From: Leptolyngbya ohadii IS1
GTDB taxonomy: Bacteria; Cyanobacteriota; Cyanobacteriia; Elainellales; Elainellaceae
Direction: 5' to 3'
NCBI RefSeq assembly: GCF_002215035.1
Contig: NZ_NKFP01000001.1
Span: 1,299,501 to 1,363,500 of the forward strand
DNA length: 64,000 nt
Part shown: positions 40,351-52,444 of the stretch, piece after piece
Layout: each line of letters opens with the position of its first letter
Numbering within the stretch: position 1 is the stretch's first letter
Program-made: the position numbers and the translations under genes
The notes under the pieces: generated by a model
What the model saw: only the letters and a program-made list of their open reading frames with translations
What the model was told of the DNA's origin: nothing
Databases searched by the model: none

Positions 40351-41199
40351 GTGGGTCAGTTGCGCTTGCAGAAACATCAAGCCGAACGATTAGGAGTCAA
40401 GCCCCGCAGTCGGATGAGTGGAGGGTTAGAGAAGGCATGCTTACGCCTGAGTGCGAATGAGTCATTCCAGGCTGCGGCAGCGGACATTGCGGCACTAACC
40501 GGGATAGCCGTGGGGCACTCGACCCAACAACGCCTGGTTGGACGGCAGGCATGGGAGTTGCCGGATGCGAAACAAGGTGTCAGTGAGATCAGTGTTGATG
40601 GCGGCAAAGTGCGCCTGCGTGACCTGAAAGACAGCGACAGCCCGTGGCGAGACTACAAAGCGGTGCGGTTGTGTGGGACATACTATGCTGGCTTTTATCA
40701 GGACAACGAGAGCTTGGTGGATTACCTCAATGCTCAACGGTTGCTCAAGCCTGTGGTGTGTTTAGGCGATGGGCATGATGGGGTATGGAATCTGTTCAGT
40801 GCCGTTGCCTGCCCCGATGAACGCAGAGAGATTCTCGACTGGTATCACCTCAAGGAGAATCTCTACAAAGTGGGTGGGTCGTTCAAACGCCTGAAAAAAG
40901 CCGAATCCTTGCTGTGGCAGGGGCAAGTGGAACAGGCGAAGGTATTGTTTTCCGATTGTCAAAGAAAACAGGCGCGGAATTTTGAAGCCTATCTCGACAA
41001 ACATCGTCCCCGGATTGTCAATTATGCCGATACCCAGGCTCAACAACTTTGCTCGATTGGTTCAGGAGCGGTAGAATCGGCAGTCAAACAGATTGGACGA
41101 CGCTTACAAATATCGGGGGCGCGGTGGAACACTGCCTCAGTGAATCCGATGTTGAACCTGCGCTGTGCATACCTCAACGGGCTGCTCGCTATTGCGTGA
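40351..41199 (+). CDS. ISKra4-family transposase
   Basis: 282 residues with a GTG start behind AAGGAG. Catalytic features: EISVDGGKVRLRD (first Asp), VVCLGDGHDGVWNLF (second Asp) and SGAVESAVKQIGRRLQ with the terminal Glu; ILDWYHLKENLYKVG is typical of the family. A frameshift fusion with the preceding small frame is possible. The gene looks intact. Confidence 0.88.
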   Translation: MGQLRLQKHQAERLGVKPRSRMSGGLEKACLRLSANESFQAAAADIAALTGIAVGHSTQQRLVGRQAWELPDAKQGVSEISVDGGKVRLRDLKDSDSPWRDYKAVRLCGTYYAGFYQDNESLVDYLNAQRLLKPVVCLGDGHDGVWNLFSAVACPDERREILDWYHLKENLYKVGGSFKRLKKAESLLWQGQVEQAKVLFSDCQRKQARNFEAYLDKHRPRIVNYADTQAQQLCSIGSGAVESAVKQIGRRLQISGARWNTASVNPMLNLRCAYLNGLLAIA

Positions 41200-43840: not shown

Positions 43841-44239
43841 TTATGGTTCTGAGCGTGCTGTCCCTTCTCGATCGTGCTCATATCGGCGGGCAACGTTGAA
43901 CGGAGGTAGCCAATCCTCTCGACGACAGAGCCAGAGTTCATAGGTGGGTGCCACTTGATTCGGCATATCGAAGATGCCAGCAGGGATTTCGATTTCGTCA
44001 GCAGAGCGACCGAAGACTGAGGAGCCACAAACTGGGCAGAAATAGCGTCCGCGATAGTCGGATACGGTACCGGTGATGCTGACCGCATCGGCAGGAAAAA
44101 TCGCAACCGTATTGAATACTGCCCCGTGGTGCTTGCGACAATCCATACAATGGCAAATGCCCACCCGAAACGGCTCAGCAGCAATTTCCAGACGAACTGC
44201 TCCACAAAGGCATCCCCCGCGATAGTGCGCTTCTCTCAT
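43841..44239 (-). CDS. GFA-family (CENP-V/GFA) zinc protein
   Basis: 132 residues. Zinc-binding motifs in the family order: GGCLCGAVRLE, GICHCMDCRKHHG and RYFCPVCGSSVFG. The family name comes from glutathione-dependent formaldehyde-activating enzyme, but most members have no proven activity. It stands alone. Confidence 0.92.
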   Translation of the reverse strand: MREAHYRGGCLCGAVRLEIAAEPFRVGICHCMDCRKHHGAVFNTVAIFPADAVSITGTVSDYRGRYFCPVCGSSVFGRSADEIEIPAGIFDMPNQVAPTYELWLCRREDWLPPFNVARRYEHDREGTARSEP

Positions 44240-44771
44240 ATGTCATCTATCGTACGCTGCTATTTAGATTAGTTGCTGATGCCGACTCACGCTTGGCAAC
44301 CGAGAGAGGCATACCAGGCTGATAGTTCCTCACCAATCAAATGCGTTCCCCCCTCCAATCTTCAAACCGCTGTTCTGGTCCTGTAAACGAACCGCTTGAA
44401 TTTGCCAGTTTTGAGGGCATGGACTTGCCCTTAATCGCTGGTTAATAGAGCATGAGTGGCTAACGTTCGATCGCGCTATGCGGATCCAGTCTTGGTTGAT
44501 CGCACGGATTCACGCGGAGCAGGCACACTCGTGTCGCGTCCATCTGAAGGTTTTGCAAGCCTGCTTTGCGTCAGGAGAAATTCCCTCAGATCCCAGCACA
44601 CTAGACTATTTTGAGGATTTGCGATCACTGTATTGCGATCACTGTATAAGGAGGGGCGGTATGAGGAAATGCTGATTCAGCTTTACCAGCTCGATCGGAA
44701 AGATGCTAGAAAACCAGGAAATCCAGGATGAGCTAAGAATAATTCTGCTGTCCTCAAAATAGCTGGCAAAA
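44240..44771. other. Intergenic region with possible gene debris
   Basis: 532 bp. Around 44480-44675 a frame reads EQAHSCRVHLKVLQACFASG and DPSTLDYFEDLRSLYC, which looks like a coding remnant, with a short direct repeat GCGATCACTGTAT at its end. I cannot assign it to a family, and no intact gene is present. Confidence 0.4.
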
Positions 44772-44772
44772 T

Positions 44773-45128
44773 GCGATCGCTCACACAGCACAACAGCACC
44801 CAGACCGATCACTTGGAATCGTTTTCCTCATCTAAATCAAGCTATGGGGAGATGATCTGATCGATAACGGCAATCGATTGCAGCGTTAATAGAAAAATGA
44901 TCAGGACAGAACTCCCAACATAATTACTTGAGGATGATCCGCAATCTAAGTTGGATGCTGTTATTTGAGACAAGATATGCACAAAACAGAACTATAAAGA
45001 ACCTCCTTTGCAATTATGAGCTGAAGAGATTTGAATTGCACTGGAAGCCTGATCGCTTCATAGGTTTAGAATACGCCGAAAGCGATCGCATCTACCAGAA
45101 AGAGAACAAAGTTTACGATCGCCTTCGA
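44773..45128 (+). repeat. Long diverged repeat, copy 1
   Basis: About 356 bp that align along their length with 56688-57045 in the same orientation, by eye around four-fifths identical. The best-kept part codes KRFELHWKPDRFIGLEYAES followed by QKENKVYDRLRP in copy 1; copy 2 keeps FELHWK, FIVLEYAENDRI and QKENKLYDRF. The upstream half carries stops in all frames. It may be a remnant of a repeated gene or of a mobile element I do not recognise. Confidence 0.75.
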
Positions 45129-45212
45129 CCTTAGCCTCAGAAGCGATTGCAGCTTGATGCTGCATCTGCTACCAGATGCAGAATTCCTCTGGCAACAGGC
45201 TGTTCCAGTTAG

Positions 45213-45293
45213 CCTTTTTCTGATACGGTTCAATCAAGGCACAATCCTCAGTCAGTTCCAATCCTAGCTTGTAAATTCTGTATCAGAAAAAGG
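45213..45293. repeat. 14-bp perfect inverted repeat upstream of the CoiA-like fusion gene
   Basis: CCTTTTTCTGATAC at 45213-45226 and its exact complement at 45280-45293, separated by 53 bp; the right arm ends 9 bp before the ATG at 45303. It could be element ends, a recombination or operator site, or a leader stem sequestering the start region. Confidence 0.7.
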
Positions 45294-45302
45294 GGCGCTC
45301 CG

Positions 45303-46511
45303 ATGTGGCTTCAATATGGGCTAGATGCGAATGACTCTCTTGTATCGATCGAATTCGTTCAGCGAGGTAAGACCCAACTGCAATGCCCCTATTGTCGGGG
45401 TGGATTGACGGCAAAAAAAGGGATGGTCTTGCAGCATCACTTTGCTCACACTGAGGAAACATGCCGCTCTGCTGCTAGAAGTGAGGATGATCTCCCTACC
45501 CCTCCTCTGTATGACAAGTTTGATCTATGCCTTTCCAGTAAGGATTTAGCCAAACTTACTGAATTGTGGGAGAAGTCGAATTGAGGCGAGGAGTCAATCT
45601 GGTTCTTTGACCCGCCTGATTACATTAAACGTTTCCGCAAAAGAGGACTATTGAAGAAATCAGGCTCAGCGTTCCGGTTCACAGATCTGGGACGAATCCC
45701 ATTGGGGGGACCCAAGCTCAAGGAGTTTGAGGAGATTCAGTCAGGCAGCATCAGCGGCAAGCTGCATGGGCTGACCGAGGATGTCAAAAAATGCTTTCAG
45801 CATGGGTTTATTAACCTGCTAGAGGCATTAACCGACTTGAAGATTCTAGCTCAGATGCGTCGCCCCCTGTTGCTGACGCTGCATTGTCTGGAAGTTCAGG
45901 TAGATGGACAAACCCTCTATAAAATTGGGGTGACTCGGCGGGAGATGGACAACCGCCTAGCTGAGATTGAAGCACAGCTACGGCAATACTTTCAGACGGT
46001 AAAGCTTAAGGTGAAAGGGACATGGCTGCACCGGGGCAATCTGGAACTCTACTTCAAACACCGCTACAAAAGCTTTCACTACCCAAGTGCGAACCTGACC
46101 GAATACTATCAATTTGACCCGGATCAAATTAAGGATGTGCTGAAAGACCTGAAGCGACTGAAGCCGAAGGTGTTGAGCGACCTGAACCTGGACAAGTCGA
46201 TTCTGGAAGGTAAACCACTCCTGATTGAGCGACAAATCGAGGCAGAACGGCAACAGTATTTTGCTCAAGCGTGGCAACGGCAACGCTCGCAATCGATTCG
46301 CACGGGGATGGAGCGGGCAAAGCGCTGGGGGAAGCATGTTGGGAGACCAGTCGGAGCAGAAGAGACTCCAGGGCAGTTTCTAGCTAAGCCATCCAGTCAA
46401 CGCGTGATGGAAGCCCTAGAGAATGGGCGATCGCTTCGCCAAGCTGCGGCTGAGGCAGGCGTGTCAGTCAACACAGTCCGAAAAGTCAAAGCAATGGCTA
46501 GCAAGCATTAA
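45303..46511 (+). pseudogene. CoiA-like zinc ribbon / GIY-YIG nuclease / resolvase-type HTH fusion, one nonsense codon
   Basis: A single frame of 402 codons broken only by TGA at 45582-45584. Residues 1-93: CoiA-like start with a zinc ribbon and His motif (LQCPYCRGGLTAKKG, HHFAHTEETC). Residues about 175-280: a T5orf172-like GIY-YIG nuclease (LYKIGVTRREMDNRLAEIE, catalytic-type Glu in GNLELYFKHRY, EYYQF). Residues about 330-402: a segment like the C-terminal part of serine recombinases, with the linker GMERAKRWGKHVGRPVG and a helix-turn-helix (MEALENGRSLRQAAAEAGVSVNTVRKVKA). The combination suggests a DNA-cutting protein guided by a resolvase-type DNA-binding end. Without suppression the protein stops at residue 93. 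Confidence 0.7.
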
Positions 46512-46554
46512 AAAGTCAAGTAAAATTCTTCCAAAACCCTTGCTATTGCTAGAT

Positions 46555-46884
46555 ATGCCGCTTTTCCTCGTTACCAGCCTCTACGATGAAGGCATTTCTC
46601 TCAATCTGCTGTGGGTAGTGGAAGCAGAATCCGTAGAAGCGATCGCGGTTCATATGCTGAGTCATTTGGATACCTGGGGCTACTTCCTTGAACGTTCCTT
46701 TGGCGAAGACTTACCGATCGGCATCCCCACGCCCGCAGAACTCTTGAGCTGCATCAACCGCACCTTTGTAGACGGAGACTCAACGGCACAGCTTAGAATC
46801 ACGCCCATTACCGTACAGTCGCTCGACGAGGTTGACACACTTCCCTCATTCCATCCCAACGCCCTGTTTTCGGATTTTGGTTAA
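46555..46884 (+). CDS. Conserved-looking hypothetical protein
   Basis: 109 residues from the ATG at 46555. MPLFLVTSLYDEGISLNLLW, then VVEAESVEAIAVHMLSHLDTWGYFLERS and TPAELLSCINRTFVDGDSTAQLRITPI. It reads like a compact alpha/beta protein; no catalytic motif or signal peptide. It starts 43 bp after the fusion gene and is followed immediately by a decayed nuclease gene. Function unknown. Confidence 0.6.
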   Translation: MPLFLVTSLYDEGISLNLLWVVEAESVEAIAVHMLSHLDTWGYFLERSFGEDLPIGIPTPAELLSCINRTFVDGDSTAQLRITPITVQSLDEVDTLPSFHPNALFSDFG

Positions 46885-47359
46885 ATGATGACCTCTCTAC
46901 TGCTTCACCTCATACAGGATCAGTTCAACCTTCAGCTAGTCCAGACCCGATTGCCTCTGGTGCGTCCTGATTCACACCCAATCTCCCCCTTCTGCCGAAC
47001 GATGATGGAATGGGGACTGGAGTGCGTCACGCCCAACAGCAATGAACGCACCCGCTGCGAAGTCATTGTTGGGCAGATCATGACGAATGTTGCAATCGAT
47101 GCGAAAGTGAGTTTGTTTCTACCCGCTTGAGGTAAATCCTCAGCTTGGCTTGGTCGGGAGCTGCGACTCCCTCATCAGTCGATCGCCCCTGACCTTTCGG
47201 ATTCACTCGCCGATCGCCCTCATTGTGGAAGTCAAGCGAGATCTGGCGCGTGCTTTGCCCCACTGCCTGCTGGGTCTGACTGCGGCTCAACAGTTAAACG
47301 CCTCGTCGCAGAGAGTTTGTGGCAGCAATTCTCATTTTGGTACTTTTGTACAGATTTAA
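46885..47359 (+). pseudogene. Decayed PD-(D/E)XK-type nuclease-like gene
   Basis: The first part reads FNLQLVQTRLPLVRPDSHPI, then MMEWGLECVTPNSNERTRCEVIVGQI and stops at 47130. In another frame the text resumes at about 47150: CDSLISRSPLTF, then PIALIVEVKRDLARALPHCL and LGLTAAQQLN. The order (RCExIV..., SLF, CDFLISRSP, IVExK, AAQxxN) matches a common cyanobacterial protein with a restriction-type nuclease core; IVEVK would hold the catalytic Glu-x-Lys. At least one frameshift and a deletion after SLF separate the pieces. Confidence 0.55.
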
Positions 47360-47645
47360 GCGTTTTGCAAGCATTGGAGTCAACGAGAGAATCAGCTTTT
47401 CAGCCCCTAGCGTTGAGGGAGAAATGAGAACTGTTCTCATAATGAGAATTGCTGACATCGGTAGGAGCATCAGTACCTCTTCTCGGCAATGTGTTAGGAT
47501 GATATTCTGCAACTTACTTCCGGTCTGTTGTTGCATATTGGCTCTTGTTTGTTCGAGCCATCTCTAGAAATAATCAACTTACTGCTCTTAGGCTGGTCCC
47601 AGTGCTGCATTGGGGATAGGGGCACAACTAGGAGCAATCTAATTC
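47360..47645. other. Intergenic region upstream of the RNA helicase
   Basis: Contains the palindromic ATGAGAA array (separate entry). No gene seen. The helicase has no strong ribosome site; AGGAGCAATCTAATTC before the ATG is the likely one. Confidence 0.5.
47424..47449. promoter_or_regulatory. Fur-like array of alternating ATGAGAA half-sites
   Basis: ATGAGAA-CTG-TTCTCAT-A-ATGAGAATT contains three half-sites in alternating orientation: two overlapping palindromes with centres of 3 and 1 bp. The second, TTCTCAT-A-ATGAGAA, is a perfect 7-1-7 palindrome like Fur/PerR-type boxes. It lies about 200 bp upstream of the RNA helicase start; another TTCTCATT occurs near 47331. Confidence 0.5.
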
Positions 47646-49215: not shown

Positions 49216-49505
49216 CAAAATATATTGCGCAGTTTGCGAATGAGTTGTGTAATTCTCACTTCTGCAACAGATAAAGGGGTTGAGCCGAGATACGTGTGAT
49301 TTTTTATCACATAGCCTTGAAACATAAACCGAATAAGCGCTCTAGCCTTTTTGTCTTTAGCCGTAATCGCTGAAAGCTCTAATTAGTACAGGTTTGGACT
49401 ACTTTTGGACGCTGTACTAGCGAAAAATGGTTAGTCCCTCTTCAATCACTCTGCTGAGAGCTATCTAGGATAGAGGTAGCCCTCTTTGTGTTGGAGATTT
49501 GCCCT

Positions 49506-50816
49506 ATGCCTCCCTCCAGAGATGCCCGTCCTACCTTGACTTTTGTGGATGAGTACTGCCAACTGTTTCAATCGCTATTTCCTGAAGTGCGAAGCTTTGA
49601 AGCCTTCAAGCTGTTGCATTTGGGACTGATCTCAGATATTAAACGTAAATCCCTTCCTGCCATTGCCAAGGCAGTAGGACTGGATGACCCACAAAGCCTG
49701 CATCATTTCCTCACCGAATCCCCTTGGTCAGCCCAAAAGTTTCGCCGAGAGCGTCTACAAGTCACTCTAGACCTGCTGAAAGGCGCAGCGATGATGTTGC
49801 TCATTGACGAAACGGGAGACCGTAAAAAAGGCAAAACCACAGATTATGGGAAACCACAGTACATCGGTAATGTCGGCAAAAAAGAGAATGGGATTGTGGT
49901 TGTTACGGCATACGGATTGTACAAAGGCATGATCTTGCCGTTGAGTTTCGAGGTGTACAAACCCCATGAGCGACTTAAACCCCCTGAAGCTTATCGCACC
50001 AAACCTCAAATTGCGGCTCAAATGATTCGAGAGCTACAGGCGATAGGATTTCGATTTGAACTGGTGCTGGGCGATAGTTTATATGGCGAGAGTGATGGCA
50101 ATTTTGTCAGTGTATTGCATCAATTAGGATTGCCTTACATTCTGGTAATCCGCAGCAGCCACGCCATGTGGGTGCCCAAAGACCAGCACGTGAGAATGAA
50201 TCGATGGCGCAAATTTGAACGAACTTTCACCAACGGTGAAACCGAAACCCGCTATATTCGCGAGCTTATTGATGGACAACGCCGGGAAGTCCGTTATTGG
50301 CAGTTGACCAGCGATCCTCAAACTCTCCCTGGCAATTCGACCTGGTATGTCATGAGCCATGTCTCAATGCTCAAGTTCAACCAAGTGGGCGATCAATATG
50401 GCTTTAGAACCTGGGTCGAGTATGGTCTCAAGCAAAGCAAAGACGAATTGGGATGGGCAGACTTTCGCATGACGAGTTACGAGCAGATTGAGAAATGGTG
50501 GGAAATGGTGATGAGTGCCTTTCTCATGGTTAGACTGTTCGCCGAGCAGTTCAATGATTGTTGCCCTTTGTCCCATCAAGTTTTGGCGCGACATCCTTGG
50601 TGGGATAATCAGAAGGGTTGGAAGAATTTGCTCAACAACCTGCGCTTAATCATCCAACCGTTAATTTGCTACAACTGGCTGAAGCGATGGTTAGAGGTCT
50701 TTATCATTCCCCACCTCTCAATCGGATTTGCGCGGCTCATTGAGCAGATGAATCAGTTTGTTTGTCCGGCAGTGCGTTGGCTCAACTTGGATAGACTTCT
50801 CTTTTCTTCCGCATAG
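49506..50816 (+). CDS. IS701-family transposase (second element)
   Basis: 436 residues from the ATG at 49506 (TTGGAG upstream), the same length as the 25.6-kb paralogue. DDE residues: MMLLIDETGDRKKG, FELVLGDSLYGES, WVEYGLKQSKDELGWADFRM. The coding frame is intact; the IS1380 insertion begins right at its TAG stop codon, so the protein is unaffected though the element's right end is now 1.6 kb away. Confidence 0.92.
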   Translation: MPPSRDARPTLTFVDEYCQLFQSLFPEVRSFEAFKLLHLGLISDIKRKSLPAIAKAVGLDDPQSLHHFLTESPWSAQKFRRERLQVTLDLLKGAAMMLLIDETGDRKKGKTTDYGKPQYIGNVGKKENGIVVVTAYGLYKGMILPLSFEVYKPHERLKPPEAYRTKPQIAAQMIRELQAIGFRFELVLGDSLYGESDGNFVSVLHQLGLPYILVIRSSHAMWVPKDQHVRMNRWRKFERTFTNGETETRYIRELIDGQRREVRYWQLTSDPQTLPGNSTWYVMSHVSMLKFNQVGDQYGFRTWVEYGLKQSKDELGWADFRMTSYEQIEKWWEMVMSAFLMVRLFAEQFNDCCPLSHQVLARHPWWDNQKGWKNLLNNLRLIIQPLICYNWLKRWLEVFIIPHLSIGFARLIEQMNQFVCPAVRWLNLDRLLFSSA

Positions 50817-52444
50817 CCTGAATTATTCACGAGGGTTAAGGAAAATACAGGAAAGAGAGCTTGAAACGGAATAGAATCAAGCTCTCTAAGATTTTTTGCG
50901 TCTTCATTGTGCCATGACAGTCTGTGAAACAGAACTGCCCTACGATTTTGTCACCCCTCGTCCCCTGGTTATCCGCTTTTCCGACTTGGAATTGAGTTCA
51001 GACGCAGGCATTCTCCTAGCACGACAAGCCGAGGAAAAGGTGGGCATTTGCCGTGTCATTGCTGGGTGCATTCAGGAATGGCGTGACCCTGACAAAATCA
51101 CGCATAGCCTGTACCAGTTGGTGAGTCAGCGCGTGTATCAGTTGGTGGGGGGATATGAAGATGCTAACGATAGCAATCAGTTGCGGCATGACCCGATTTA
51201 CAAGCTCGCCTGTGAACGATTGCCCCTGCCGAACGAGGAACTGCTGGCAAGCCAACCGACGATGAGCCGATTGGAAAACCGAGTCCAGAAGCGGGAGGTG
51301 AGCCAAATGCGAAGCGCAGTGGTGGAGAGTGGTGGAGACGTTTATTGAGAGCTATCGCACAACTCCCGAAGAGATCGTGCTGGATGCCGATGGCTGGGAT
51401 GCAGCAACGCATGGGACACAACAGTTGAGCTGCTTTCATGGCTACTATGGACAGCACATGTACTTCCCGGGTTTGATTAGCGAGGCAAGCAGTGGCTATC
51501 CGTTAGTGCTGCAACTGCGAGCCGGCAATTCTCACCCGGGTAAGGGCGTGGCAGGGCTATTGCGGTGGTTGTTCTGGCGACTGAGAAAAGCGTTTCCTGG
51601 CGTGCGAGTTATGTTTCGTGCCGACGCTGGCTTTGCCTTGCCGGAAATTCTACGGGTGTGTGAGCGTTCTGGGGTAGGGTACGCCATCGGCTATGCTCGC
51701 AATGCCGTCACCGAGCACAAGATCGCCCCCTTACTCGAACGTGCCCGCTTACAGTTTCATCAAACCCAAGCGAAGGCAAGGCTGTTTGATGATGTGTACT
51801 ATTCAGCAACCACCTGGGATGAACCTCGCCGGTTGGTAATGAAGGCGGAATGGTTGCCCAAAGGTGCCAATCCTCGCTTTGTGCTCACCAATCTCGACCT
51901 GCCACCGCAGGAGTTATATGACCGATTCTACGTGCAACGGGGGGCGGACAGTGAACATTGCATCAAGGAACTCAAGCTTGGCATTCATGCAGACCGCCTC
52001 AGTTGCCACCACTTTATTGCCAACCAGTTTCGCTTGCTGTTGTCCCAAGCGGCTTACATCTTACTGCTTGCAATTCGCCAAGCGGCACAAGGAACTGAAT
52101 TTGCCAACGCTCAGGTCGAGCGCTTACGGTCAATGCTTATCAAAGGGGCAGCCAGAGTCAGAGTATCAGTGCGCCGAGTGCTGGTCGAGCTTGCTGCCTA
52201 CTGTCCCTTTGCCGCCCAGTTACGTCAGATTGTGCAGCAATTAGTCTCTGCACAACCCCAGGCTTTGGGCTAATTTCTAACCCTTTGTAGGATCAGTGTG
52301 TCTACTGGCAGTTCATTTCCATTGTTTTGGTCATTCTCCATGCCGTTGGCACCCTTGTAACCCGTTCTCACCTCCAGTTTTTCCTTCCCATTCTCCAGAT
52401 TACCAACCTTGCCTTCTAGGGTCACACCTCATGAATAATGCAGG
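50817..52444 (+). mobile_element. IS1380-family element nested in IS701
   Basis: 1,628 bp. Left end CCTGAATTATTCACGAGG at 50817 and right end CCTCATGAATAATGCAGG ending at 52444 are inverted repeats with two mismatches. TAG precedes the left end and CTAG follows the right end, a possible short target duplication. It is inserted exactly at the stop codon of the host transposase. Confidence 0.85.
50914..52273 (+). pseudogene. IS1380-family transposase with a 10-bp duplication frameshift
   Basis: The first part (from ATG 50914) covers LVIRFSDLELSSDAGILLAR, LVGGYEDANDSNQLRHDPI and PTMSRLENRV, the IS1380 DDE_Tnp_1 start. The second part covers EEIVLDADGWDAATHGTQQL, MFRADAGFALPEI and RGADSEHCIKELKLG. 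They are in different frames because GTGGTGGAGA is present twice in tandem at 51319-51338; deleting one copy restores RSAVVETFIESY. Otherwise complete. Confidence 0.9.

Follow-up and report, generated by a model that had tools for sequence, protein, structure and literature searches.

The window, a 64,000-nucleotide stretch of the genome of Leptolyngbya ohadii IS1, holds one member of an old and mostly plasmid-borne nuclease family in which a serine-recombinase-type tail probably binds short DNA half-sites, mediates repression of the gene that encodes it and directs cutting, the whole seemingly moving as a unit. The tail would recognize 14-bp half-sites (GTATCAnnnAAAGG and variants) and, as two of these lie at the gene's own promoter, the protein would repress its own expression, as far as can be judged from sequence; the nuclease domain would then cut DNA in which the same half-site stands beside a cleavable sequence, in a manner comparable to I-TevI and Odn. 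The interest lies in the family more than in the window copy.

The gene is located on the + strand at 45303..46511 and comprises 402 codons, including one TGA, followed by TAA, with the order CoiA_N, winged helix, GIY-YIG and recombinase-type tail. The frame initially delimited at 45213-46511 is open except for this TGA (codon 94, 45582..45584, +), which had been noticed as a single stop at 45582 and is the only one in 45303-46511; intact homologues start at an ATG matching 45303, and 45213-45302 is therefore non-coding upstream DNA. At 45882..45884 (+), in a second lesion beyond the one originally noticed, a CAT codon (His) replaces the active-site Tyr (Y196 of homologue L090) that is found in 42/42 homologues of alignment A2, which consists of 42 homologue rows and does not include the window copy. 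Because of the TGA and the loss of this invariant Tyr, the gene is regarded as a putative decayed chromosomal relic whose half-sites are still perfect, and a sequencing error may be present at the TGA or at the His codon 45882-45884. The window is part of a 1.55-Mb contig of a cyanobacterial genome (7.9 Mb, 8 contigs), and insertion-sequence-like genes, named by eye, are present on both sides of the gene. An Rfam scan of positions 44000-47500 gave no match, and no promoter-like site was found in a search of the window copy. The surrounding stretch is rich in insertion sequences, with transposase-like ORFs recognized by eye at 40351-41199, 49488-50816 and 51329-52273.

The presence in one protein of a CoiA_N ribbon, a GIY-YIG nuclease and a recombinase-type tail, as stated in the original prediction, is borne out by Pfam and PHROG. 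The CoiA_N-type zinc ribbon (CPYC...HHFAH...C; 45363..45467, +, residues 21-55) is matched by Pfam CoiA_N at 4.6e-8 and 32.9 bits (cut-off 26.3) in the window protein, and its residues C28, C31, H46, H49 and C54 are invariant in 15/15 homologues and also in 42/42 rows of A2. The original prediction did not include the winged helix that follows, whose approximate borders (45525..45716, +) were transferred from residues 75-136 of the L090 model; in VIA these residues match the winged helices 1stz (Z 5.4) and 2x4h (Z 4.8), values below 8 that therefore give a fold hint only. The GIY-YIG core of the MUG113/T5orf172 type (45918..46148, +, residues 206-282) retains the active-site K, R and E and is detected in the window protein by Pfam MUG113 (7.1e-9, 36.6 bits, cut-off 22.3) and T5orf172 (8.2e-4, 20.3 bits, cut-off 20); one or both of these models exceed the cut-off in six of seven full-length homologues, L117 being slightly under on both. 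The active-site residues Y, K, R, E and E are invariant in all 42 homologues of A2, tail-less rows included. The model of the core has a pLDDT of 94.3; Foldseek against the PDB returned weak matches, with I-TevI (1ln0) at rank 21 (E 2.1), VIA listed no GIY-YIG entry for the core (best Z 4.4, unrelated) and a viral library listed T5orf172 and GIY-YIG proteins with a top E of 1.8e-4. The GIY-YIG assignment is based on the Pfam matches, the T5orf172 proteins listed by the viral library and the conserved residues.

The N-terminal domain is shared with the competence protein CoiA (Pfam CoiA_N), whereas the nuclease of the family is GIY-YIG; Pfam scans of the window and its homologues detected CoiA_N and no CoiA nuclease domain. 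The serine-recombinase catalytic domain, whose absence had been predicted, is likewise without a Pfam match in the window and the homologues. R.Hpy188I, which is not known to carry a recombinase-type tail, offers a further comparison. Like the family, it has an active-site Lys instead of the 'YIG' Tyr, according to PMC2630997, and differs from the family in being a Type II restriction enzyme.

The tail (46260..46493, +; PHROG 125) is composed of a long helix, a GRP hook and a helix-turn-helix, with the GRP motif at 46341..46349 (+) between the helix and the HTH; in serine recombinases this motif is the minor-groove hook. The window tail matches PHROG 125 'DNA invertase' at 6.9e-6 (residues 226-303 of the C part) and the same profile matches 15/18 family tails, with a best value of 2e-11. 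The whole-protein profile of alignment A1 identified Sin resolvase (2r0q) at 5.2e-5, with no other match under 0.9, and the tail profile placed Sin 2r0q at the top of 41 matches (4.6e-6), followed by a Trp-repressor-like chain (0.0026); moreover, hhalign of the tail against residues 138-206 of two plasmid serine recombinases gave Prob 95.5 and E 1.6e-8. In the AlphaFold2 model of L090 (42 rows, mean pLDDT 92.7) the nuclease is followed by a helix (308-336), a GRP-bearing loop and a helix-turn-helix, and the best VIA match of this tail is again 2r0q, with a middling Z of 6.0 and 2.3 A over 47 residues, the Tn3 (5cy1) and gamma-delta (1gdt) resolvases being found in the top 8 amid other HTH proteins. 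Pfam HTH_7 on the tail is sub-threshold only, and the sequence evidence for the homology with recombinases is stronger than the structure match. The agreement of Sin, hhalign and PHROG 125 on a recombinase-type tail speaks against the ordinary unrelated tail that had been named as the contrary case, and the N- and C-terminal parts, proposed to be joined, form a single gene in intact tailed homologues. The end of the long helix, the GRP hook and the helix-turn-helix are shared with Sin resolvase and DNA invertases; unlike serine recombinases, the family is devoid of the catalytic domain, and its half-sites, whose starts are 35-68 bp apart, do not constitute a crossover site.

Upstream of the window gene, the left half-site (GTATCAGAAAAAGG on the - strand) occupies 45213..45226 and the right half-site (GTATCAGAAAAAGG on the + strand) occupies 45280..45293, the end of the latter overlapping the likely ribosome-binding site. 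The inverted repeat had been described as perfect over 14 bp and is in fact complementary at 14/14 positions, with 53 bp between the arms and 9 bp before the ATG. Since an arm of at least 10 was obtained in 22/1170 mononucleotide shuffles of upstream regions, the repeat is judged not to be due to chance; the overlap with the ribosome-binding site would alone conserve part of the right arm. This inverted repeat, for which no role had been proposed initially, is probably the binding site of the gene's own tail. A dispersed repeat or MITE was considered and rejected, the left arm with partial spacer (27 bases, at most 3 mismatches allowed) being single-copy in the 7.9-Mb genome. The strict half-site has five matches in this genome, two of which are the known arms, versus eight in the reversed control, so the scan shows no additional sites; within the window, matches to the half-site at 2 mismatches are at chance level.

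The conserved half-site of the family is GTATCAnnnAAAGG and variants, and two copies stand before tailed nuclease genes; the inverted repeat, whose conservation before uninterrupted homologues had been raised as a point to follow, is conserved upstream of the tailed ones. The half-site of Hin is TTATCAAAAACC, and that of the family resembles it. When the window arm was used as query with at least 11/14 matches, it was found upstream of 12/28 tailed, 2/52 tail-less and 0/4 degenerate-tail copies, while 2% of the shuffles of the tailed and tail-less classes reach 11/14; this search covered 160 bp upstream, with the window outside the 28 and near-identical upstreams removed, and was restricted to upstreams of at least 60 bases and to copies with a clear start, apart from the broken tailed L026 and L042, which were kept. 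A half-site matrix, derived from hand-picked seeds and applied to each row without its own clade, recovered 22/30 tailed, 0/4 degenerate and 1/35 tail-less rows at p<=0.01, and 27, 0 and 1, respectively, at p 0.05 (Fisher 1.9e-10, a value that ignores kinship, one close Vibrio-type group accounting for 10/30 tailed rows). The tailed rows above p 0.05 are L030, L107 and L113, the first two of which carry GGTTCA half-sites by eye; only a single good arm is present in L043, L090, L070 and L013, and the tail-less L087, placed among tailed rows, retains one half-site. Since tailed copies carry matching sites at their own start, the enzyme may switch off its own gene. The recognition helix and the half-site also appear in matched pairs by eye: NTVRK-type helices pair with GT[AG]TCA, STVKR-type helices with GG[TG]TCA and the RTVQR helix of L028 with [AG]ATCA. 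In 10 of the 11 Vibrio-type copies inspected, L106 being the exception without TTGCA, the left half-site falls by eye inside the spacer of about 17 bp from a -35-like TTGCA[CT] to a TAAACT-like -10.

The orientation of the pair is variable (-+, +- and ++), as would not be the case for a strict palindromic operator, and half-site starts are 35-68 bp apart; spacings of 35-36, 55-57 and 67-68 are suggestive of helical phasing, with 41, 42, 44 and 60 as exceptions. An RNA hairpin in the leader, acting as attenuator or terminator in place of a protein site, is very improbable: folding of the window leader does beat its shuffles (z -3.1, 2/200 as good), but L014 and L035, where the half-site occurs as two direct repeats, have leaders that do not fold (z 0.44 and -0.51), which argues against it, and conservation concerns sequence and not pairing, the copies following the presence of the tail. 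In L014 four same-direction half-sites precede the nuclease (G116:C310:58973-59204), as two pairs each 56 bp apart.

Beyond single promoters, the pattern CCTTTNNNTGAYAC-N27..57-GTRTYANNNAAAGG was found in 386 cyanobacterial genomes at 4 places in 3 genomes, against 0 in the reversed control; these inverted pairs correspond to the tailed-nuclease promoters of the window, G167 and G197, and to a site in G197:C38 before a tyrosine recombinase. Such second inverted pairs upstream of a tyrosine recombinase are located at NC_019754.1:8583 in Crinalium pCRI9333.03 (L128:1501-1582, spacing 68) and at G197:C38:3743-3823 (L138, spacing 67), and suggest a common regulator or an additional target. Each of 7 Vibrio/Shewanella plasmids has a single strict half-site, located at the nuclease promoter; when six gamma records were scanned with a looser half-site, the matches were near the level of the reversed control and are uninformative. 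A protein acting chiefly as transcription regulator of its own promoter and sometimes of that of a tyrosine recombinase, with the nuclease fold no longer in use or active solely on the DNA bound there, would account for the second pair in Crinalium pCRI9333.03 and G197 and for the 7 gamma plasmids devoid of any further strict half-site, and a transcription factor retaining a nuclease fold by chance would be expected to give the same upstream picture. This explanation is nevertheless quite unlikely, as the catalytic set is kept in every A2 row, including tail-less rows without sites, and would not be needed by a pure regulator; in addition, the second pair is confined to one sub-lineage.

Uninterrupted homologues, the search for which had been proposed from the outset, occur in four phyla: intact copies with all parts are present in Cyanobacteriota, Chloroflexota (L102), Bacteroidota (L035) and Gammaproteobacteria, mostly on plasmids, and the identical architecture across these phyla indicates that the join of nuclease and tail is old and real. 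Homologues of the C part were detected in 16/386 genomes from the phylum, a count that includes the genome of the window, and in 66/72,556 plasmid records at E 1e-5 (80 at 1e-3); 50,697 phage records gave no match with the protein or with the tail. A scan of genome contigs with the window protein alone found no relative, and the alignment query found 74 loci. Among 106 non-duplicate loci, 87 have the length and start of an intact gene, 18 are broken, some possibly owing to contig ends or assembly, and one is ended by a contig edge; this count leaves out 8 duplicates and the ribbon-only L116, L118 and L119, and the window copy is an extra broken one. A contig classed as viral carries L117 (IMGVR_UViG_3300037506_000443), a tailed relative of full length that has the two half-sites. 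Short tail-only relics with no nuclease in frame were observed at G000:C3:223695-223781 (L002) and L125:3001-3195 (Stanieria); the former, an 80%-identical tail fragment, was rejected as a family member.

A quick tree built from 69 core sequences groups 29 tail-less cyanobacterial rows in a single clade (SH-aLRT 97) nested within mostly tailed rows, and the 4 degenerate-tail rows in another (100); the tail label takes 6 changes. The simplest reading would be an ancestral tail, lost later together with the half-sites; because the tree is long-branched and has no outgroup, we infer the direction, gain or loss, and do not read it off directly. Ten tail-less homologues (L006, L008, L009, L011, L024, L063, L077, L079, L081 and L094) have a GCGGGT...ACCTGC leader hairpin just 5' of the ribosome-binding site, with 6 pairs and no two-sided changes, which is perhaps a control element in place of the lost DNA sites.

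The comparison of L041 (V. vulnificus pYJ016) with nine relatives showed that the DNA becomes similar from -62 to -66 in 5/9 and from -79, -103, -105 and -859 in the remaining four, and that in 8/9 the similarity is lost no more than 10 bp from the stop; the neighbours and flanks vary from plasmid to plasmid and do not represent one conserved locus. With similarity edges near the promoter and the stop and with differing neighbours, a unit made up of promoter, half-sites and ORF seems to move between unrelated plasmids. Direct repeats resembling GGGGAAAACG flank the unit in L041, L029, L108 and L109, at about -100 and directly past the stop, the upstream copy of L109 having one change; they are possibly a trace of the unit's movement.

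The movement of the gene as a discrete unit is also what a strict homing endonuclease would produce, cutting an empty allele and having its gene copied into the break; PMC10448857 regards T5orf172/MUG113 proteins as homing endonucleases of phages, and the 18 broken loci of 106 would fit a cycle of gain and decay. Against this, the search for an empty site with matching flanks revealed breakpoints, one of them probably a transposon end, and no clean empty allele, and the flanks vary between plasmids, so that homing in the strict sense is a possibility of some weight and yet doubtful. A defence nuclease acting on phages or incoming plasmids and not steered by half-sites is unlikely: CoiA-domain and GIY-YIG proteins are among the E. 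coli defence hits in PMC9519451, 5/15 rows of A1 weakly resemble PADLOC DruB and restriction genes are near some plasmid copies, but no PADLOC model matched member 1, the best E among the members is 1.9e-4 and the neighbours are not constant between plasmids.

The preferred reading, a tail-guided and self-repressing nuclease, has its closest parallel in I-TevI, which, according to PMC2988022, binds its operator and its homing site alike and cuts the operator about 100-fold less. The likeness to I-TevI as described there includes a GIY-YIG nuclease, a zinc element and, at the C-terminus, a distinct DNA-binding part whose site overlaps the protein's own promoter, the corresponding sites here being predicted; unlike I-TevI, the family has an N-terminal CoiA-like ribbon, an extra winged helix and a serine-recombinase-type tail and, in contrast to the intron-borne I-TevI, consists of plasmid genes for which we infer repression. 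Odn (Gp88 of phage ICP1) similarly combines a T5orf172 nuclease with a DNA-binding domain from another kind of protein, as reported in PMC8263062; that domain is RepA_N and Odn cuts replication origins, whereas the family has a recombinase tail and, as a chimera, is old and occurs in several phyla. A limited literature search found no description of a GIY-YIG or T5orf172 nuclease with a serine-recombinase tail. A more specific proposal, put forward tentatively and rather unlikely as it stands, is that these are selfish plasmid nucleases with a recombinase address label, which would repress themselves and cut recombinase-type sites of rival plasmids, label and site covarying across four phyla.

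If the preferred reading is true, the logic of I-TevI, in which one DNA-binding end serves both repression and targeting, would recur in ordinary plasmids with a different DNA-binding end, and the family would supply a naturally occurring set of protein-site pairs that fit each other, alongside related clades in which tail and sites were both lost. The re-use of a recombinase DNA-binding domain as a nuclease guide would then be directly testable with this family, and a function would be provided for genes of Vibrio, Shewanella and cyanobacterial plasmids whose annotation goes no further than 'GIY-YIG nuclease family protein'.
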